This document shows positions 9,768-34,133 of a DNA stretch of 35,494 nt, one piece after another. The stretch covers positions 1 through 35,494 of the forward strand of contig DAHVVZ010000009.1 in NCBI GenBank assembly GCA_027357065.1, given 5' to 3'. The DNA is from Candidatus Saccharimonadota bacterium. GTDB taxonomy: Bacteria; Patescibacteriota; Saccharimonadia; Saccharimonadales; UBA4665. The position numbers and the translations under genes are program-made. Each line of letters begins with the position of its first letter. Position 1 is the stretch's first letter. The notes below the pieces were generated by a model. The model was given only the letters and a program-made list of their open reading frames with translations, was not told where the DNA came from and ran no database searches.

Positions 9768-9952
9768 AATTGGAACCTCCTTATATTTTATAATTCTTAG
9801 CGTACAAGGTATGATTACAAATGTAAAGGATTTAAGCTTTAGCGCATTAAATAGTTTGCCAAAAAAACTTTATTTTTACGTACTACGCGAAATGTATTTT
9901 TGTTAAAAATTGGTTTACTATTATTTATATCTAAGGCTAAATTACATTAATA

Positions 9953-10366
9953 ATGTTGTCTGATTTTAAGAAATTTATATTGCGCGGAAATGCTATTGAG
10001 CTAGCCGTGGCCTTTGTCGTCGGCGCTGCTTTTAACGGAGTAGTGCAGTCATTAGTGAAAGATTTAATCACGCCTTTAATTTCGGCAATTGGTGGCAAAC
10101 CAGATTTTTCAGCTTACTATTTTACGCTCAATCACAGCCGCTTCGCGTACGGCGATTTTATAAATAGTCTGGTCTCATTTCTAATGATTGCAGCGGCCGT
10201 TTTCTTTTTGGTAATTCACCCGCTAAATAAATTAATCGAATTTACTTCACGGCTTAAAACTCCGCCCGATCCAACTGACAAAAAATGTCCGGAATGTCTA
10301 AGTACTATTCCGATTAGCGCTACCCGCTGTGCCTTTTGTGGCGTTAAATTAAAGCCCGCTAAGTAG
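9953..10366 (+). CDS. mscL: Large-conductance mechanosensitive channel with C-terminal zinc ribbon
   Basis: MscL N-terminus (DFKKFILRGNAIELAVAFVVGAAFNGVVQSLVKDLITPLI) followed by KKCPECLSTIPISATRCAFCGVKLK. Confidence 0.92.
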   Translation: MLSDFKKFILRGNAIELAVAFVVGAAFNGVVQSLVKDLITPLISAIGGKPDFSAYYFTLNHSRFAYGDFINSLVSFLMIAAAVFFLVIHPLNKLIEFTSRLKTPPDPTDKKCPECLSTIPISATRCAFCGVKLKPAK

Positions 10367-10374
10367 TAAAAAAA

Positions 10375-10805
10375 TTATTTCTGGCGATGTCGACGATGCA
10401 GGTTTGCGACTTGCAGGCGTACCGCACTTCGATCGATTAAGGCCTGAGCGTGCTCCAAAGAAACCTGGTCTTTAGCTTCAGCATGCATGCGCTTAGCTCT
10501 TTCAAAAGCTTTTTGAGCCTCAGCTTCATTAATGCCTTCCGCAGCGTCAGCCTCGTCAACAATGACTCGCAAATTATTATGCTCAAACTCAATTACGCCG
10601 CCGTAGGTCGCGTAGTGATCCATTTGCCGGTCCATGTCATGCGGATTCTTGCGAACGCTAATCACGCCGGTAGTTGCAACACTAATTAGAGGCATGTGAT
10701 TTGGCAAAATGCCAATCTGCCCATCCAGGGTCGGCAATAGCACCTCATAGACATCACCCTCAAACATGGTGCCGGTTAATGTCACGAGTTTGAGATGAAA
10801 CATCA

Positions 10806-10806
<1 letters not shown>
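10375..10806 (-). CDS. atpC: F-type ATP synthase epsilon subunit
   Basis: FHLKLVTLTGTMFEGDVYEVLLPTLDGQIGILPNHMPLIS; operon position after beta. Confidence 0.93.
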
Positions 10807-13083
<2,277 letters not shown>

Positions 13084-18031: not shown

Positions 18032-18601
18032 ATGGCATTTGAGGGATACAAAACCAAAGACTCGGTAGTCGTCGTGTTTACCGGCGAAGGCAAGGGAAAG
18101 ACCAGCGCTTCAGTCGGCCTAATGGCCAGAGCTTTGGGCAATGATTGGCGAGTGGCCTTCATTCAATTTATTAAGCACTGGGAAGTTAGCGAGCACAGCT
18201 TTATCAGACAAATCCAGCCACTCTATGGAAATAAGTTATTTTTCTATAAGGGTGGCCGCGGTTTTTATAACGCCAAGGATCTGAGCGCTAAAGACGTAAC
18301 CCCGGAAGAACATCGGCTGGCCGCCGAACTAACACTTGAAACCGCCATAAAATGCGCAAGCTCCGGCGACTACGATTTAGTAATCTGCGATGAGATCAAT
18401 AACGCCGTGAACGATGGTTTACTTAAAATTAGTGACCTTAAGCAATTAATAACCAAGCGCCATCCTAAAACCAGTCTTTGTCTAACCGGACGCAACTTTA
18501 AACCTGAGCTGCTGAAGCTTGTAGACATTGCAACTGAAATGAAAAAGATAACCCATCATTTTGACAAACACTATCTAGCCAACAAAGGTATAGATTATTA
18601 A
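18032..18601 (+). CDS. Cob(I)alamin adenosyltransferase (CobO/BtuR-like) family P-loop protein
   Basis: VVVFTGEGKGKTSASVGLMARALG ... VAFIQFIK ... LVICDEINNAVNDGLL ... SLCLTGRN. Confidence 0.88.
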   Translation: MAFEGYKTKDSVVVVFTGEGKGKTSASVGLMARALGNDWRVAFIQFIKHWEVSEHSFIRQIQPLYGNKLFFYKGGRGFYNAKDLSAKDVTPEEHRLAAELTLETAIKCASSGDYDLVICDEINNAVNDGLLKISDLKQLITKRHPKTSLCLTGRNFKPELLKLVDIATEMKKITHHFDKHYLANKGIDY

Positions 18602-22198: not shown

Positions 22199-22273
22199 TC
22201 CGGGGTAGCTCAACGGTAGAGCGGGACGCTGTTAACGTCTAGGTTGCTGGTTCGAATCCAGTCCCCGGAGCCA
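22199..22273 (+). tRNA. tRNA-Asn (anticodon GTT), CCA encoded
   Basis: Acceptor TCCGGGG/CCCCGGA, anticodon loop CTGTTAA, T arm CTGGTTCGAATCCAG, discriminator G then CCA. Confidence 0.95.
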
Positions 22274-22980: not shown

Positions 22981-23068
22981 TTGACAATTTACAGGGGTAA
23001 GGTAAAGTAAGGCGAGCCTAAAATTCAGGTGGTAGAAACGTCTGGTTCGAATCCAGTTCCCGGAGCCA
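22981..23068 (+). repeat. att-like module R2: 63-nt upstream block plus tRNA-Asn 3' tail (25 nt incl. CCA)
   Basis: TTGACAATTTACAGGGGTAAGGTAAAGTAAGGCGAGCCTAAAATTCAGGTGGTAGAAACGTCTGGTTCGAATCCAGTTCCCGGAGCCA; last 25 nt match the tRNA-Asn 3' end with one mismatch. Confidence 0.9.
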
Positions 23069-23119
23069 AGCATAAGCACTTTAGCGAAACCTAATTCGAT
23101 CTACTTGCATTTTCGCTTA

Positions 23120-23947
23120 TTACAAATTAACGATTAGGTTGTCATGCCCAATAATAAAACTATCGTTTTGATATTTTTGTACTAAAATTTCGTGTTTGTT
23201 CATGTGTCTGCTCATATGCACTGTATATGTTTTTGCTGCATTAATTTTAGTTTGTAAATCTATGACTTCGTCAACTGTCATGTGAAACCATTCTGTACCT
23301 AAATTAGGGGTAGGCATACCGCAATCTATATATACCCTTTTTACTTGTTCTATGTCTTCCGAGAAGGTATCGGCGAAGAGTACATCAACATTATTGAGCG
23401 CCTCAATCGTTTCAGGATTAAGTTTGGAATTTGTATCCGTCACAACAGCAATTTTTTTATCTTTATAGCTAAATATAAACCCGCTCGTGGGGAATCCATG
23501 ATTCAGCTCGATTGGCAGAACTGATAGATCAGTTGTTAATTGAATTTTTTTAAAATTATCGAATGTTCTAAACGTAAGTACTTCTTCATTTTCTAAATAC
23601 TTCCAATACTCCATGAGCTTATGATTGAGAGAATGATTACCAAACCAAAGTGTTTGTGGCGCTGATCTCCTAAAAAAGAACTCCCCTAAACCGTTAACAT
23701 GGTCAGAATGATGGTGAGTAATAAATATATGGTCAATGTCTTTTAACTCTAAATTTGAATTTAAACACTCCCACTTTAGATCAGGATTTGGGTCAACCAA
23801 GATTTTCAGATTGTCTATTTCAAGCAAAAGTCCAAATCTATATCTTTTAGAATGAAGGTCTAGGCACGTATCGCAGCTACAGCCTGCTAGAGGAGTACCT
23901 AAAGTGTCGCCCGAACCGAGAATTATAATCTTAATGCTTGGAATCAT
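23120..23947 (-). CDS. MBL-fold hydrolase, PhnP/PqqB-like
   Basis: IIILGSGDTLGTPLAGCSCDTCLDL, IFITHHHSDHVNGLGEF, VVTDTN, VHMSRHMNKHE. Confidence 0.85.
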   Translation of the reverse strand: MIPSIKIIILGSGDTLGTPLAGCSCDTCLDLHSKRYRFGLLLEIDNLKILVDPNPDLKWECLNSNLELKDIDHIFITHHHSDHVNGLGEFFFRRSAPQTLWFGNHSLNHKLMEYWKYLENEEVLTFRTFDNFKKIQLTTDLSVLPIELNHGFPTSGFIFSYKDKKIAVVTDTNSKLNPETIEALNNVDVLFADTFSEDIEQVKRVYIDCGMPTPNLGTEWFHMTVDEVIDLQTKINAAKTYTVHMSRHMNKHEILVQKYQNDSFIIGHDNLIVNL

Positions 23948-24225
23948 ATAGCTTCTTTATCGCTTTCTGGGCAGTTGTACTATTAATTATCGCCTTCATT
24001 ACACTCATATTATTATATATGTGGCGCAAGTTAGCTTCTGAATTAAAGTTGCGAAGCTCGTCCACTAGAGGGAGCCAGGCCAGGCCAAGTCGAGCTATAC
24101 CCAGACCGAGTTCCGTAGCCAAAAGTCACACACATTCTTTTGTCATACAGAAATGCATCGTGCTGATTACAAGGCGCGAAAGTAAGAACCATCCGAAAGC
24201 GCGGTTTTCGCTTTATTACTCCTAA

Positions 24226-24290
24226 AGTCCAGTCCGTAAACTGACCAGTTAAACCCCTGGAAACTGGACGGCGAGAAAGCCGACGGACTT
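24226..24290 (+). ncRNA. Candidate structured RNA (three-way-junction-like inverted repeats)
   Basis: Nested pairings agtccgt/acggact (7 bp) enclosing ccagtt/aactgg (6 bp) and cggc/gccg (4 bp) inside a non-coding intergenic region. Strand is not established. Confidence 0.3.
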
Positions 24291-24434
24291 CTGTGACTGA
24301 CCTTCCTCTAAGCCAACAAAAAAATAAGCTATTCAGTAAACTCTAACTGACCGTTCCGGATCTGCAGTTTTGTTTTCATACAGACGACATGCATATTTTT
24401 CATAGATGAAATAGTAAGGCGTATGATATGGGTA

Positions 24435-25076
24435 ATGAATCTATACCTATCCTCATACGGCATTCCGGCTCCTCGAGAGCTTGAGAAATTGCTTAACATA
24501 ACCTTGCAGGCCGCTAAGGTTGCACTCATTCCTAATGCCAAAGATTATTTAGCCCAAGATGATAGAGATACCAAAATTAAAGCATACATAGCCAAGTATC
24601 TTCAGCCGCTTGGTCTTAACGTTGACGTGATTGACTTGCGAGGCTACAACGACTTGGTAGCCCTAGAGAAAACCTTACGCAACTACAATCTCGTATGGGT
24701 GATGCCAGGCAACACGTATGTGCTTCGTTATGAGATGCAGCGTAGCGGATTTGAAAACATCATACGCGAGCTCTTAGCTTCGGGCGTTGTGTACGGCGGA
24801 GGTAGTGCGGGAGCGCTCGTGGCGGGAATGTCCATTGACGGCGTTGAGGCGATAGACAACCCTGTATTTGCGCAAGCTTTAATAAACGAAGGCTTGAACT
24901 TAGCGCCTTACATCATTGTCCCTCATGCCGACAACGCTGAGCTTTCCGGTCTTTTACCGAGTATGCAGGCAAAGCACCTAGACAAGCAGTGTATTGAGCT
25001 CAATGATTCACAATCAGCGGTGATTACAAACGATAGGTATGTAATCGTAGACGCAGAAAAGTCAAGTCGGAAGTGA
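24435..25076 (+). CDS. Peptidase S51 (dipeptidase E-like)
   Basis: VALIPNAKDY, LVWVMPGNTYVLRYEM, nucleophile elbow VVYGGGSAGALVAGMSI. Likely start MNLYLSSYG at 24435; the track ORF starts at 24423. Confidence 0.85.
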   Translation: MNLYLSSYGIPAPRELEKLLNITLQAAKVALIPNAKDYLAQDDRDTKIKAYIAKYLQPLGLNVDVIDLRGYNDLVALEKTLRNYNLVWVMPGNTYVLRYEMQRSGFENIIRELLASGVVYGGGSAGALVAGMSIDGVEAIDNPVFAQALINEGLNLAPYIIVPHADNAELSGLLPSMQAKHLDKQCIELNDSQSAVITNDRYVIVDAEKSSRK

Positions 25077-25228
25077 TAGAATAGCTCACTGTACAAGACG
25101 CAAGAACAAGCAGGTGTAGACCGTTTGAGCACTGCACAGCGCAACGAGCGAAAATAATATCACTGATATATATTTGCTATTAACGCAAGATGTAGTATCC
25201 TAAATGTAATCTTAAATGACTGGTTTTT

Positions 25229-26548
25229 ATGGCCGAAATTTCACCCGAAAGCGTTCCTAGTGATCTATACCTAACTACTGACGAAGTTCGAGCTATGTTC
25301 TTGGATTTCTTTATGAGGAAGGGGTATGCACATCACCCTAATGTCGGTGTCATCCCCGAAAACGACCCAACGCTCTTATTTATAAATTCTGGGATGGCTC
25401 CGATGAAACCCTTCTTTACCGGCGAAGCCACGCCTCCAACTGATCAACTAACAAACGTACAAGACTGTATTCGCACCGGCGATCTCGATGATGTAGGTGA
25501 TTCGTACCACGGCACGAGCTTCCATATGATGGGCTCATGGCAGTTCGGCGACCGATTTAATAAAGAACAGGCAATCGAGTATGCGTATGAACTTATCACA
25601 GACGGCTTTGGATTAGACCCAGACTACCTGTTAGCCTCTGTTTTGAATGATGAAGCTAAGGAACAAGGAATTCCTAAGGACGAAGAAGCAGCCCAAGCCT
25701 GGGCAAAGCTACTCCCAAATGAGCGAATAATCTGGCTGCCACCATCCGACAATCTATGGGGGCCTCCGGGCACTAGCGGACCATCTGGTCCTTGCACCGA
25801 AGTCTTTTTCGACCGAGGTTCTGGCTTTGAGGAAGGTTACGACAACGTAGCATTGCGAAAGGGTCGGCATATCGAAATTTGGAACGCAGGCGTGTTTATG
25901 ACTCACCACGTAGCAGAAGATGGCACGGTTACTCCACTGGCATCGAAGAGCGTTGACGGCGGGGCGGGACTTGAACGTATCGCTATGATTCTGCAGAACG
26001 CGCCCAGTATACATGAAATTGATAAGTGGCTTCCGGCCTACGATGTAATTCGCACCGACAACCAAGATACTCGTTCGGCTCGTATCGTCATCGACCATAT
26101 ACGCACTGCCGAAATTCTTGCTCGCTCAGGTGTGATTCCAGGCAACAAAGCCGGTCCGTACGTGCTGCGGACTCTACTACGCCGCGCCATGACTACGCTC
26201 GTGCAAACGGGGATTGAGCAAGGTCGTTTGCTAGAGTACCGTGATGCTATCTGCGAACAAATGGATGAAGTACCCGGCACCGTTCGGACACATAATGAAG
26301 TAAGTACAATCTTCGCGAAGGAACGTGACGCATTCGCGAAAATCCTTCAGCGCAGCGAGCGGCTCCTGGCACCCATTGTCGCTCGAGGCGAGACGACGGG
26401 CAACGAGCTATATAAGTTGCACGAGACCCACGGCATACCAGTAGATATTTTACGCGAGACCTGCAACAGCAACAATATCCAATTCCCAGAGGAAACGTTT
26501 GCCGCCGCCCGTAGTAAGCATGCTGAAGAGTCTAGTGCCACGAAGTAG
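25229..26548 (+). CDS. Alanyl-tRNA synthetase N-terminal (catalytic)-like protein lacking editing and C-Ala domains
   Basis: AlaRS-like: NDPTLLFINSGMAPMKPFFTG, CIRTGDLDDVGDSYHGTSFHMMGSWQFGDRFNK (motif 2), GPSGPCTEVFFDRG, IEIWNAGVFM, GGAGLERIAMIL (motif 3), DHIRTAEILARSGVIPGNKAGPYVLRTLLRRAM. Ends at 439 aa. Confidence 0.85.
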   Translation: MAEISPESVPSDLYLTTDEVRAMFLDFFMRKGYAHHPNVGVIPENDPTLLFINSGMAPMKPFFTGEATPPTDQLTNVQDCIRTGDLDDVGDSYHGTSFHMMGSWQFGDRFNKEQAIEYAYELITDGFGLDPDYLLASVLNDEAKEQGIPKDEEAAQAWAKLLPNERIIWLPPSDNLWGPPGTSGPSGPCTEVFFDRGSGFEEGYDNVALRKGRHIEIWNAGVFMTHHVAEDGTVTPLASKSVDGGAGLERIAMILQNAPSIHEIDKWLPAYDVIRTDNQDTRSARIVIDHIRTAEILARSGVIPGNKAGPYVLRTLLRRAMTTLVQTGIEQGRLLEYRDAICEQMDEVPGTVRTHNEVSTIFAKERDAFAKILQRSERLLAPIVARGETTGNELYKLHETHGIPVDILRETCNSNNIQFPEETFAAARSKHAEESSATK

Positions 26549-26624
26549 ACACTGAACGTATACAATCGATGGTAAATCAATCCCAAGAAACTTTGTACTA
26601 ACGATAAAAGGAGTAATCAGACCA

Positions 26625-27326
26625 ATGCCTTCCCCTAACCAACTCATTCTTGGCACGTGGCAGTTCGAAACTATCGATGAGCAGACCGCTGCCGCGCTTG
26701 TGGCACAGGCCCACGACACTGGTATCCGTACGTTCGATACGGCAGCCGTGTACGCTTGCGGGAATGCGGAACGCATACTTGGTAAACACCTACATACTAG
26801 TGACACTATTATTACCAAGACCACCGCGGTACGCAAGGGCATACCATCAATTGCCACTGCATATCCTAAGCAATATATTGAAGAGAGCGTAGCCGGATCA
26901 GTAGAACGCCTTGGCCGGATGCCAGACGTCATGCTCATGCACAACTGGGACGAAGCTTGGGAAGCTGATCCAGATACACCAGCCACAATAGACAAATTTC
27001 GCACTATATGCACCCAGCAGGGCATACCCCTAATCGGCATCTCCCTGCCGAATGGATATAGTGGCAGTTTAGAAGCACATGCCAACATATTGGATGCGGT
27101 TGATTGCCTTGAAGCTCCATATAACCAGGACTCGCCGAGTCTCAGTGCTCAACGACTTTCAACGTTATCATCAACAATGCCAGTACTGGTTCGTAGCATT
27201 TTTAGGCATGGCAGAGACACCGAAAAGATAACCTCGAGACTACAAGAAGCGGTAGCAATTAGTGGCCTCGTTGTCGTTGGTGCGACAAAGCCAGAACAAA
27301 TTCAGCAATGGAGCACCGTACTATGA
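26625..27326 (+). CDS. Aldo/keto reductase family protein
   Basis: LILGTWQF, GIRTFDTAAVYACGNAERILGK, TKTTAV, DVMLMHNW, VVVGATKPEQI; RBS aaaggag upstream. Confidence 0.82.
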   Translation: MPSPNQLILGTWQFETIDEQTAAALVAQAHDTGIRTFDTAAVYACGNAERILGKHLHTSDTIITKTTAVRKGIPSIATAYPKQYIEESVAGSVERLGRMPDVMLMHNWDEAWEADPDTPATIDKFRTICTQQGIPLIGISLPNGYSGSLEAHANILDAVDCLEAPYNQDSPSLSAQRLSTLSSTMPVLVRSIFRHGRDTEKITSRLQEAVAISGLVVVGATKPEQIQQWSTVL

Positions 27327-28561
27327 GTAGAGGCGAGACAAACCCCTTTACTGCTGGATGTGCCGCCGATAGGGCAAATCAAGAAGTATTCATACCCGTC
27401 ATCGGAAGACGGACCGGTACAGAGTTCAAAATGCGTGAATTCACCTATGGTGTACTCGATTCAGATCCGCACAGCCCATTGTCTTGCGTGAGCGTAGCAA
27501 ATTCCTCACTGAGTGTTGACTTATGGAAGGGTTGTGCATGGCAGTGTAGCTACTGCCACGTGCAGGGCGGGCTGCAAGATTTAGACCCAGAAACCCTAAC
27601 TATGCCCAAACGACCAGAACCGCGATCGCGCTTTGAGGTCGAAGATGTGGTCGACGCACTGGTTGAACACCCTTTCTTTGAACGTAATAAGTCAGTCATA
27701 AGTATAGGCACGGCAAGCACTGAACCTTTTGCGCGTGGACCGGTTTCCGATTCGACATTTGAAATAATGGAGCAATTTGTCGCCAGGGGCTACAAAAATC
27801 CGTTCTGGGTTGTAACCAAAGCTGGCTTTCCTAAGGGCTATGAAGAACGCTTGAAAAGTGTTACGGAAAATGGGAACCAAGTTATGATTTCTATTTGCTG
27901 GGCCAATAACCCTAAGCATGTCGAGCCCGTACAAACAAACCGTTTCCGCAATGTGCAGGCCGCGCACGAAGCTGGCGCAACCATTAGTTGGTACTTACGC
28001 CCCCTCGCTGACAGCTGGAGTATTGATCCAACAAAGTTAGCAGAAACTTTCGAGACTGCCAGTAAATATGCGCCCTGGGTTGACGAAATTATCCCCGGAG
28101 GCTTGCGCTGGACAATGGGGATTGAGTACGGTGTAAATGAAGTACGCGGCCAAGAAATGCCTAATATTCCTCACAAAGATAACGTCAAAGACTTGAGTGA
28201 AGAAACCTGGGTTCTTATACACGAACTCGCAGAAAAGTACTTCCCGGGCGTACCGCTGTACCACAAATCTTCATGTGGCTTGAGCTTGATGCTCGAAGCC
28301 CCCAACCATAACCTCGTGCAGCGTCATAATCGTGATGCCTGCGAAGCGTCGACGTGCCCGGCCGCACAACGTGACCGATGTGAGTCATACCAAGTCCCTG
28401 GTCGCAGCGAGCTGCAGCACCGTCTTGCCACTATCGGTCTCAAAGAAATCGAAGTTGTTTCAGTTGATCAAGGCACTGGGAAGGTAACAACGAAGCCCGA
28501 ACTTGGCACACTAACATTTGCGCTCAAGCACTTGGTCGAAATACAAACCGCACGAGAGTAG
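27323..28561 (+). CDS. Radical SAM protein
   Basis: CX3CX2C motif LWKGCAWQCSYCHVQGGLQ. Start overlaps the AKR stop (ATGA). C-terminal Cys cluster CEASTCPAAQRDRC. Confidence 0.88.
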   Translation: MSRGETNPFTAGCAADRANQEVFIPVIGRRTGTEFKMREFTYGVLDSDPHSPLSCVSVANSSLSVDLWKGCAWQCSYCHVQGGLQDLDPETLTMPKRPEPRSRFEVEDVVDALVEHPFFERNKSVISIGTASTEPFARGPVSDSTFEIMEQFVARGYKNPFWVVTKAGFPKGYEERLKSVTENGNQVMISICWANNPKHVEPVQTNRFRNVQAAHEAGATISWYLRPLADSWSIDPTKLAETFETASKYAPWVDEIIPGGLRWTMGIEYGVNEVRGQEMPNIPHKDNVKDLSEETWVLIHELAEKYFPGVPLYHKSSCGLSLMLEAPNHNLVQRHNRDACEASTCPAAQRDRCESYQVPGRSELQHRLATIGLKEIEVVSVDQGTGKVTTKPELGTLTFALKHLVEIQTARE

Positions 28562-28565
28562 GCCT

Positions 28566-29309
28566 ATGGCGAAGAACACGGAAACTCCCAGGATTATCGA
28601 AGCTATTACGTTGCTCGACCCCAATGCAGCTATATTAGCGACGGATCATAATCCCGAAAGTGCGACCGACTTGCTTGTCGTAGGCGAGATGCCGCGCGAC
28701 GTGTACATAGAAAAGCTGAATGAATCTGCCATACTGGCACATTTCACACGTAAAAGAAGTGACGATGCACTTATTATTACTGCTGACAATGGATCCGCCT
28801 GCGGTGTTGCGTACTACGAGCAAAAATTGTTCAGCACGCGAATTCAAGCAATTGCAATGGGGCGCGAAGTTGACCCTATCGTGAAACCATGGTCAGTTGG
28901 GCCTTGGCTACCAGAAGCGTTTGCAGCAGATCTGTCCCAGGCACATGTACTACGGTCGAATCCAGCTGTCGAAAAAAAAGTCGCTCATTTTACAAACTAC
29001 CCGGAAGGGATGCGACAAGGCATACTGCAGCGTTGCATCGAAGAGATTACGATAAAAGCGAATCGCATGGGTCGTACAGCAGAAACGGTTAAAGACCTCG
29101 CATTCACCCAAACAGCTGCTGATATATGCATGGCAGGTATACGTGTAGCGCACGCCCGAGAGCGAGTGTACTTTCGTGGCCTACGATATGTGGATGAGAC
29201 CATACCAAAGCTCTCAGAGGGAGGCAGAGCGATTGCTAGTGAGCTTAGCACTACAGCCAACTACAGAGTAGCACTGGAGCTTATAAATCTTGGTTCGAGA
29301 CAGCAGTAA
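28566..29309 (+). CDS. Uncharacterised protein of the AlaRS-like/rSAM cluster
   Basis: ATG 4 nt after the rSAM stop; 247 aa from ATG 28566 (track ORF 263 aa). No family recognised with confidence. Confidence 0.7.
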   Translation: MAKNTETPRIIEAITLLDPNAAILATDHNPESATDLLVVGEMPRDVYIEKLNESAILAHFTRKRSDDALIITADNGSACGVAYYEQKLFSTRIQAIAMGREVDPIVKPWSVGPWLPEAFAADLSQAHVLRSNPAVEKKVAHFTNYPEGMRQGILQRCIEEITIKANRMGRTAETVKDLAFTQTAADICMAGIRVAHARERVYFRGLRYVDETIPKLSEGGRAIASELSTTANYRVALELINLGSRQQ

Positions 29310-30444
29310 GCAGCCAGTCAACTACCTCTTGGTCTAGCCCGTATGTTTGCTTATAGTCGCCGTAGTCTTCTTCTGTCGGTTGCTCGCCATGTCTGAGCAT
29401 ACCTTTCATAACGACACGCGTACCTTGCCGTAGTAAGCGTTCGAATCTGTCCTCTTCAGACCTGTAAATACCAACAACACGCTCGGGCTCAACAGCTAAG
29501 CCATGAGCTTGAATCGTATCTCTTATAACCGCGTCCATTATAATTTCTGGGGCATGCAGCCGAGCACGTACGAGCTCTGCAAACACCTTGCGAACAATGT
29601 ACTGCTCAGCCTTGGGGCCTGGCATAACATCGCATGACACCATGACGGCAGCCGCTCGTGCAAAGTCGGTAATACGACACGCAGTACCTTCATCAAGCCC
29701 ACTGAGCGTGCGCCTTGCATGTACCCAACTGGCAACTTCATAATCAGTACTCAGCCCATTAGCCGCTGCCGTCAGTCGATCTATACTTGCCCCCGAGTCA
29801 AACGCCACGATCCCTAGCGGGGACCTTTTTTCATCAATACCTTCGTGGGTCGTAAATACTATGTTCCACAGCTCGGTCGTTACTCCATCTGTTATCCTGC
29901 CAAGTTCGACTCGAGTACCACTTCGGCGTCTTTGGTTACACACGTGCGTGTTATCTTCGCTCACCAATAGCGTAGGCTCTAATCCTTCAAGCACAGTCAT
30001 GGAAAGAACATCGTCTGGGTGCACACGGGCAAATAAATTCTGGATGCCCAGTTGCTGCAATGTCGCAACGGCCGACGTAATAGCAAGTTGCTTAGCGGCA
30101 GCTTCGCCAAATTCAAAGAAACTAAAATGTCCGAGCATATCAAATGCAATATGGTGACGACCAGTACGCCCGACCTTACTCAGGCCATTTGCACGTATGC
30201 AACGCTGGACTGACGCCTGGCGGGGGTAAGCTGGTGGATATTGGTCACCAGAAAGCACATCCTCATACTGAACGCCGCCTGAAATGTTGAACAGTAACGT
30301 AGGGTTATCTGTTCTAATATCAGCGTTTATACCAAACTGAAACCCATAGCCCGAGAGCACCATTTGCGCAACATCAATTACCTCATGCTCGTCCATCGGC
30401 TCAAGGCGATACGATAGTTCGTGCGTACGTTTATCTTGAGACAT
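29281..30444 (-). CDS. Second, divergent AlaRS catalytic-domain-like protein
   Basis: TDNPTLLFNISGGVQYEDVLSG, SVQRCIRANGLSKVGRTGRHHIAFDMLGHFSFFEFGEA (motif 2-like), TELWNIVFTTHEG, DSGASIDRLTAA (degenerate motif 3), ITDFARAAAVMVSCDVMPGPKAEQYIVRKVFAELVR. Confidence 0.8.
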   Translation of the reverse strand: MSQDKRTHELSYRLEPMDEHEVIDVAQMVLSGYGFQFGINADIRTDNPTLLFNISGGVQYEDVLSGDQYPPAYPRQASVQRCIRANGLSKVGRTGRHHIAFDMLGHFSFFEFGEAAAKQLAITSAVATLQQLGIQNLFARVHPDDVLSMTVLEGLEPTLLVSEDNTHVCNQRRRSGTRVELGRITDGVTTELWNIVFTTHEGIDEKRSPLGIVAFDSGASIDRLTAAANGLSTDYEVASWVHARRTLSGLDEGTACRITDFARAAAVMVSCDVMPGPKAEQYIVRKVFAELVRARLHAPEIIMDAVIRDTIQAHGLAVEPERVVGIYRSEEDRFERLLRQGTRVVMKGMLRHGEQPTEEDYGDYKQTYGLDQEVVDWLLTAVSNQDL

Positions 30445-30494
30445 ACTTTATACATTTATCATATCTATGTGTTTCTGTATATAAGCAATAAAAT

Positions 30495-30580
30495 TTGACG
30501 TTTAATAGAGTTAAGTTAAAGTCAAACAACTTAAAATTAGGTGCTATAAATGCTTGGTTCGAATCCAGTCCCCGGAGCCA
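30495..30580 (+). repeat. att-like module R3 (86 bp) ending in exact tRNA-Asn 3' tail
   Basis: TTGACGTTTAATAGAGTTAAGTTAAAGTCAAACAACTTAAAATTAGGTGCTATAAATGCTTGGTTCGAATCCAGTCCCCGGAGCCA. The last 25 nt match tRNA-Asn exactly. Confidence 0.9.
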
Positions 30581-33358: not shown

Positions 33359-33428
33359 AAAAGCCTATATTTTAAAGGGGATCCAGTAGCATTCATGCGG
33401 CTAGATTTTAATTTGATAAACTGTGTCT

Positions 33429-34133
33429 ATGATTCAAAAAATAGTCATAACTCCAGTTGTAGCCATACCCTTAATAAAACCGGGTGATGATATATCGAGC
33501 ATAATCATCGACTCAATTCAAAAGAATGGGATTACTCTGAAAAAGCACGACATTGTTTGTGTAGCATCGAAGATTATTTCAATTTCAGAGAATAAGTATG
33601 TTGACCTCAAAAATATTACGGCTACACCTCAAGCAGAAAGTCTGCATAAAACAGTCCCCAGGAAAGACCCGCGCGTTATCCAACTAATCATTGATCAAGC
33701 CGGCAGAGCAAAAGAAAATATCAATATAACCGGTTCTTGGATAGGGGCAAAGAATCATATCGGTAGAGTTCTAACTAGTGCTGGAATTGATAAAATAGAC
33801 GAGAACACGGTCTTGACCCTACCTGACAATCCCGATTATTCAGCTAGTAAAATCGGAGAAAAAATTAAGTCAGAGCTTAATAAAAGTGTAGGAGTTTTAA
33901 TTACAGATAGCGACGGCAGGGAGGGCATCAACGGTGCAACTCAGCTGTGTATCGGCCTTTACGGAGTACCGCCTATTCGCAAAAAGGATGATTCGCCTGA
34001 AACCGCCTGTGATATGCTTGCTGCAGCCGCAGGTCTTGTGATGGGGCAGAGAGGCAATAATATCCCCGTAGTAGTGATAAGTGGTTATAAATATACATTT
34101 AACAGCAGCGTCAGACTGAAAGACGCATACTAA
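33429..34133 (+). CDS. CofE-like (F420-0:gamma-glutamyl ligase family) protein
   Basis: PVVAIPLIKPGDDISSIIIDSIQKNGITLKKHDIVCVASKIISISENKYVDL, KDPRVIQLI, LTLPDNPDYSASKIGEKIK, VGVLITDSDGREGINGATQLCIGLYGV. Confidence 0.82.
   Translation: MIQKIVITPVVAIPLIKPGDDISSIIIDSIQKNGITLKKHDIVCVASKIISISENKYVDLKNITATPQAESLHKTVPRKDPRVIQLIIDQAGRAKENINITGSWIGAKNHIGRVLTSAGIDKIDENTVLTLPDNPDYSASKIGEKIKSELNKSVGVLITDSDGREGINGATQLCIGLYGVPPIRKKDDSPETACDMLAAAAGLVMGQRGNNIPVVVISGYKYTFNSSVRLKDAY

Follow-up and report, generated by a model that had tools for sequence, protein, structure and literature searches.

A conserved five-gene cassette with paired AlaRS-like proteins, probably biosynthetic, on a tRNA-Asn island of Saccharibacteria

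Organization of the cassette

The window analysed here, a stretch of 35,494 nucleotides, is contig 15 of a genome of the lineage Saccharibacteria (599 kb, 82% complete; assembly GCA_027357065.1). It carries a cassette of five genes, in which two truncated alanyl-tRNA synthetase (AlaRS)-like proteins accompany an aldo/keto reductase (AKR), a radical S-adenosylmethionine (rSAM) enzyme and a protein named P0004. AlaRS1 (25229-26548, plus strand) has 439 amino acids and matches PF01411 with an E value of 2e-94; the AKR (26625-27326, plus strand) is short, with 233 amino acids, and matches PF00248 (E 2.3e-19); the rSAM enzyme (27323-28561, plus strand) has a CX3CX2C motif and a weak match to PF04055, below the cut-off. 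P0004 (28566-29309, plus strand) has a predicted kanamycin-nucleotidyltransferase-like fold with a degenerate nucleotidyltransferase (NTase) motif, and AlaRS2 (29281-30444, minus strand) is a strongly divergent AlaRS-like protein of 387 amino acids (PF01411, E 9e-31).

The AKR and rSAM genes overlap by ATGA, 4 nt separate the rSAM gene from P0004, and P0004 and the convergent AlaRS2 gene overlap by 29 bp at their tails. A first-pass annotation of this DNA had described five open reading frames (ORFs) with these overlaps and with AlaRS2 convergent, and all of them are present where it placed them. The cassette lies inside a 7.5-kb island (23069-30580) bounded by repeats of a tRNA-Asn 3′ end, and its G+C content is 0.50, against 0.39 immediately downstream.

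Conservation and distribution

All five genes, in the same order and with AlaRS2 tail-to-tail, recur in three other Saccharibacteria: UBA6664 (L009), UBA1050 (L010) and JAPUET MAG32 (L017/L018), where the end of contig L017 cuts AlaRS1. In an order-wide sample of 392 genomes, searches with P0004 and with AlaRS2 returned the same four genomes, always beside the rSAM gene, and AlaRS2 was confined to the cassette carriers. An rSAM profile applied to 379 genomes sampled from the whole phylum found, at E <= 1e-20, only two carriers, neither of them new. The genes are under purifying selection, with ratios of nonsynonymous to synonymous substitution (dN/dS), between UBA6664 and UBA1050, of 0.04 for AlaRS1, 0.13 for AKR, 0.03 for rSAM, 0.07 for P0004 and 0.08 for AlaRS2. 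Since the five genes share their carriers, keep the same order and have low dN/dS, they are maintained and move as a set; the genes on either side of them vary among the carrier genomes. The block conservation and the dN/dS values rule out that the five ORFs are a chance set, and the co-occurrence of the neighbours in other genomes, which had been proposed as a check, is borne out by the three additional carriers. The cassette is thus real, conserved and rare.

The AlaRS-like pair

AlaRS1 and AlaRS2 align to the catalytic fragment of bacterial AlaRS (AlaRS1 to that of Escherichia coli), covering the aminoacylation and tRNA-recognition regions only. Both had been described as ending before the editing and C-Ala domains, and indeed no such Pfam domain occurs in either protein. 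Their scores against the NCBIfam alaS model are 322 and 101 bits, respectively, for a cut-off of 457. The genome has a separate AlaRS of 629 amino acids on contig 37 (G000:C37), a point that the first-pass annotation had proposed to check; therefore, AlaRS1 is not the housekeeping enzyme. In the phylogenetic tree, AlaRS1 forms a supported clade close to canonical AlaRS; AlaRS2 forms its own clade, whose branch is so long (about 5 changes per column) that its exact placement is unsure.

Active-site residues, in the UniProt numbering of the E. coli enzyme, were compared with 28 canonical AlaRS: those of E. coli and of the host genome, and 26 others from patescibacteria. Residues R70, N213, D236 and R243 are retained in both proteins of the cassette; W171 and the GPCGPC loop are present in AlaRS1 and gone from AlaRS2. 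The pair F90/E92, invariant in the canonical set, is replaced by S and H/N in AlaRS1 and by A/S and D in AlaRS2. The change of the motif 2 residue R86 to Tyr/His in AlaRS1 was considered as a loss of ATP binding and discarded, since 19 of the 26 canonical patescibacterial enzymes also have no Arg at this position. The active-site residues kept and lost suggest that AlaRS1 can bind alanine and may also activate it, and that AlaRS2 has been repurposed.

Stand-alone truncated AlaRS-like proteins of about 300-420 amino acids are also encoded on plasmids of Streptomyces and Rhizobium (L032:9899-11083; L033:9824-11095; L035, about 9884-11065; L034:7908-8810), apparently without an rSAM/AKR cassette, and the Rhizobium gene adjoins a RES/Xre toxin-antitoxin pair. 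A stand-alone AlaRS-like gene of S. cattleyicolor was set aside, its neighbourhood having no such cassette.

The rSAM enzyme, the AKR and P0004

The CX3CX2C motif of the rSAM enzyme corresponds to C71, C75 and C78, which are invariant in six homologues, including those of Bacillota. Four further invariant cysteines in the C-terminal region (C318, C340, C345 and C353) are compatible with a second cluster. The score against PF04055 is 21 bits, for a cut-off of 29.5. Relatives of the rSAM enzyme on plasmids of Streptomyces and Rhizobiales, with about 25% identity, were rejected as only distantly related and outside this system, as they are mostly found with exonuclease and AAA genes and not with AKR and NTase genes. 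In L023, L024, L025, L026 and L027 the plasmid rSAM gene is often followed by genes for a 3′-5′ exonuclease and an AAA ATPase, and some of these neighbourhoods, which are recurrent, also include MurA-like and class II aldolase genes.

The tetrad D38/Y43/K65/H106 of the AKR is present and invariant in five homologues, and the match of the protein to PF00248 is above the cut-off.

P0004, the protein left as unknown in the first-pass annotation, has no match in Pfam, NCBIfam, PHROG or PADLOC; a fold can now be assigned to it. Its AlphaFold2 model, built from six sequences with a mean predicted local distance difference test (pLDDT) score of 84, superposes on ANT(4′)/KNT with a Z score of 12.2 over 210 residues (4.0 Å) at about 12% identity, and matches outside the ANT/LinB group have Z < 8. 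According to this model, P0004 has the kanamycin-nucleotidyltransferase fold. A comparison of P0004 and its homologues with L021:8337-9146 showed that the segments W-x-P-E and DPIVKPWS are highly conserved despite the loss of most NTase catalytic residues in the saccharibacterial lineage.

Related gene clusters in Bacillota

Among 84,980 species genomes, the sole match beyond Saccharibacteria was Thermoactinomyces sp. DSM 45892, in which the genes for an NTase homologous to P0004, an AKR and an rSAM enzyme abut; the rSAM enzymes are 45% identical. This core is followed by genes for a carrier protein (PF00550), a homologue of amino acid:[carrier protein] ligases (nearest PDB entries 3mey and 4h2s; NF005479), an ATP-grasp protein, a condensation-like protein, an S51 peptidase and a major facilitator superfamily (MFS) transporter, and a further ATP-grasp gene lies upstream of it. 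A second genome, found among 348 genomes of the class Bacilli, has the same core with a carrier protein, a ligase, an ATP-grasp protein, MazG and an S51 peptidase.

The Bacillota clusters thus resemble the cassette in the adjacent homologous NTase-fold, AKR and rSAM genes, with a class II aminoacyl-tRNA synthetase paralogue and an S51 peptidase nearby. On the other hand, their paralogue is an amino acid:[carrier protein] ligase that occurs with carrier protein, ATP-grasp, condensation-like and MFS genes; AlaRS-like proteins are absent from them, and their NTase motif, GSx8DYD, is intact. Neither AlaRS1 nor AlaRS2 was recognized as such a ligase: both are of the AlaRS type (PF01411), and none of the ORFs of the cassette was seen to encode a carrier protein.

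These clusters bear on an alternative in which the binding target of AlaRS1 and AlaRS2 is tRNA-Ala or a mimic of it and the other three proteins of the cassette modify that target, so that the cassette would act on RNA or protein. The tRNA-recognition regions kept in AlaRS1 and AlaRS2 would suit this role, and the NTase superfamily of P0004 includes RNA nucleotidyltransferases, although these are weaker fold matches. Yet the Bacillota relatives stand beside carrier protein, condensation-like, ATP-grasp and export genes, a small-molecule context, and the patchy distribution (4/392) is unlike that of a housekeeping RNA modification; we consider this alternative improbable.

Proposed function

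The closest characterised precedent for the AlaRS pair, by analogy, is AcmD/AcmF of Streptomyces sp. 80H647. In the biosynthesis of ascamycin, AcmD is the enzyme that charges tRNA-Ala, and AcmF, a truncated AlaRS-like protein, transfers the alanine from this tRNA onto a sulfamate amine (PMC12945691). As in the cassette, one cluster has two AlaRS-like proteins, one near-canonical and the other divergent, and AcmF is, by its description, cut to the aminoacylation and tRNA-recognition domains (PMC12945691). In the cassette, by contrast, truncation affects both proteins, neither has lost the pocket Asn and Asp that AcmF has replaced, and the partners differ, being an rSAM enzyme, an AKR and an NTase-fold protein. 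The amino acid:[carrier protein] ligases (Bradyrhizobium Bll0957; PDB 3mey and 4h2s) are likewise stand-alone class II synthetase paralogues that activate an amino acid outside translation; they have a SerRS-like core and a carrier-protein acceptor, whereas the cassette proteins are derived from AlaRS. The rSAM/AKR pair recalls AprD4, an rSAM diol dehydratase of apramycin biosynthesis, and its partner reductase AprD3 (PMC5461906), also an rSAM enzyme with an NADPH-dependent reductase and a sugar-type substrate. AcmD/AcmF and AprD4/AprD3 serve here as analogies, not as tests.

Then, we propose that the cassette, which is probably biosynthetic, is a self-contained unit for a small molecule, carried on the tRNA-Asn island, in which the role of the AlaRS pair is to attach alanine or a comparable amino acid; we give this reading a probability of about 0.5. 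The biosynthetic context is supported by the computations; the substrate, the product, the order of the steps and the dependence on tRNA we infer. The rSAM enzyme and the AKR would work as a pair on a core that resembles a sugar, a cyclitol or a nucleoside, the rSAM enzyme through a radical rearrangement or a dehydration to a carbonyl and the AKR through the subsequent reduction of this carbonyl. P0004 may bind this core, or its ancestor may have nucleotidylylated it. AlaRS1, with an intact alanine pocket and an intact motif 3, would activate alanine or charge tRNA-Ala, with no editing; the heavily remodelled AlaRS2 would be an AcmF-like acyl transferase; and together they would add alanine (or Gly/Ser) to an amine of the product. 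In the Bacillota, the equivalent of this loading would be performed by the amino acid:[carrier protein] ligase, the carrier protein and the condensation-like enzyme. AcmF-like loading would be the simplest explanation, because the cassette has two AlaRS-like proteins and no carrier protein, and a carrier-protein version exists in the Bacillota. It is plausible, and we suggest it tentatively, that both belong to a new biosynthetic family with a fixed NTase-fold/AKR/rSAM core and a swappable amino-acid loading module, a carrier-protein ligase in Bacillota and an AlaRS-derived transferase pair in Saccharibacteria.

The same biosynthesis could proceed independently of tRNA, if AlaRS1 alone or an AlaRS1-AlaRS2 heterodimer made alanyl-AMP and passed the alanine to an amine or a carrier. 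The retention of R70, W171, N213, D236 and the motif 3 residue R243 in AlaRS1 is in line with this, as is the Bacillota counterpart, a tRNA-independent class II paralogue; against it, both AlaRS-like proteins retain a tRNA-recognition region, which would be superfluous in a tRNA-free ligase, and the motif 2 residues F90 and E92 are altered in both. We regard this variant as unlikely.

A role in self-immunity or defence, with the AlaRS-like proteins as decoys or resistant targets of an AlaRS inhibitor or a phage factor and the NTase-fold protein as a toxin or a resistance enzyme, appears quite improbable. It would agree with the position of the cassette on an island by other accessory genes, with the higher inhibitor resistance of AcmD compared with the housekeeping AlaRS (PMC12945691) and with a weak resemblance of P0004 to the Hailong HalB fold (Z 7.7). 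But PADLOC matched none of the five proteins (0/5), no relatives of the cassette were found in the viral contigs searched, nor of its rSAM enzyme in the phages searched, and an rSAM enzyme and an AKR are hard to fit into a decoy system. Biosynthesis, modification and immunity had all been offered in the first-pass annotation; the Bacillota clusters with the NTase-AKR-rSAM core favour the first, and the other two are less probable. The use of activated alanine, also part of that proposal, is presumed here.

Several observations count against a biosynthetic unit with AcmF-like loading. A main weakness is the degenerate NTase motif, which is unexplained: intact in both Bacillota homologues, it lacks GS and the first Asp of DxD in the four saccharibacterial proteins, in which the last Asp alone is kept, a difference that also separates them from ANT(4′)/KNT. 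The pocket substitutions of AcmF (N to Q and D to E) are absent from AlaRS1 and AlaRS2, which keep Asn213 and Asp236; because of this the two proteins are not assigned to the AcmF family, though they may work likewise. The rSAM enzyme matched no characterised family, and its structure model is poor (pLDDT 65) and unfit for fold comparison. The saccharibacterial cassette showed no transporter, carrier protein or precursor peptide, and it is from their gene content that the Bacillota loci look like natural-product clusters.

The genomes of Saccharibacteria measure about 0.6-1 Mb, and these bacteria are usually credited with little secondary metabolism. If the biosynthetic proposal is true, a natural-product pathway would fit in five genes within a lineage of ultra-reduced genomes, and a conserved mobile biosynthetic cassette would offer a way to study how Saccharibacteria affect hosts or competitors. 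To AcmF, the single characterised AlaRS-like transferase that we found described, the cassette would add an independent example, and it would imply that, around one enzymatic core, amino-acid loading has been exchanged between AlaRS and carrier-protein chemistry. What is new is the combination of genes and the host; a search of the open-access literature for this combination found nothing.

The tRNA-Asn island and neighbouring genes

The apparent attachment target is a tRNA-Asn(GTT) gene (22199-22273, plus strand; ARAGORN and Rfam), which adjoins smpB upstream of the cassette. Its final 25-27 nt are duplicated on the plus strand at 23042-23068, an attachment-site-like repeat with 26/27 identical positions, and at 30554-30580, the distal boundary of the island; shuffled sequences gave an expectation of 0 such copies by chance. 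The tandem repeats delimit two successive segments, one of 0.8 kb with a ParE-like toxin gene and one of 7.5 kb with the cassette. In three other genomes of the genus, the tRNA-Asn end occurs in two copies on one contig, 1.1-12.5 kb apart (G372:C60:125492-126598; G107:C5:176860-178569; G387:C6:67618-80098), which suggests that this site is a hotspot for insertions. The cassette had been called mobile: the repeated tRNA-Asn 3′ ends that bound the island agree with this, but no integrase was found inside the repeat-bounded segments of the window. The tRNA was the only RNA family in an Rfam scan, with no T-box.

A gene for a PepE-like S51 peptidase (24423-25076, plus strand; PF03575, E 4.6e-22) lies upstream of AlaRS1 and is possibly part of the unit. 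In L017, too, the cassette has an S51 gene next to it, and both Bacillota clusters include one; overall, an S51 gene was found in 4/4 cassette carriers and in 5/17 of the non-carriers sampled. The view of PepE as an obligate sixth member was dropped: the copy in the window is nearer to the common S51 proteins of Saccharibacteria than it is to the S51 proteins of the other clusters, and in two carriers the gene is on a separate contig. The association is suggestive.

The same island includes a gene for a metallo-beta-lactamase (MBL)-fold hydrolase (23120-23947, minus strand), AT-rich in comparison with the cassette. Outside the island, the window of this reduced genome encodes an F420-0:gamma-glutamyl ligase-like protein (33423-34133, plus strand; PF01996, E 3.6e-47) and an ATP:corrinoid adenosyltransferase-like protein (18032-18601, plus strand; PF02572). 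In two of the other carriers, a LeuRS of about 959 amino acids (L009:14743-17622 and L010:2074-4953) has an apparent NUDIX-like insertion; the insertions (GGGIDD..REVLEEVG and GGGVEG..RELLEETG) differ strongly, while the two proteins are otherwise nearly identical.

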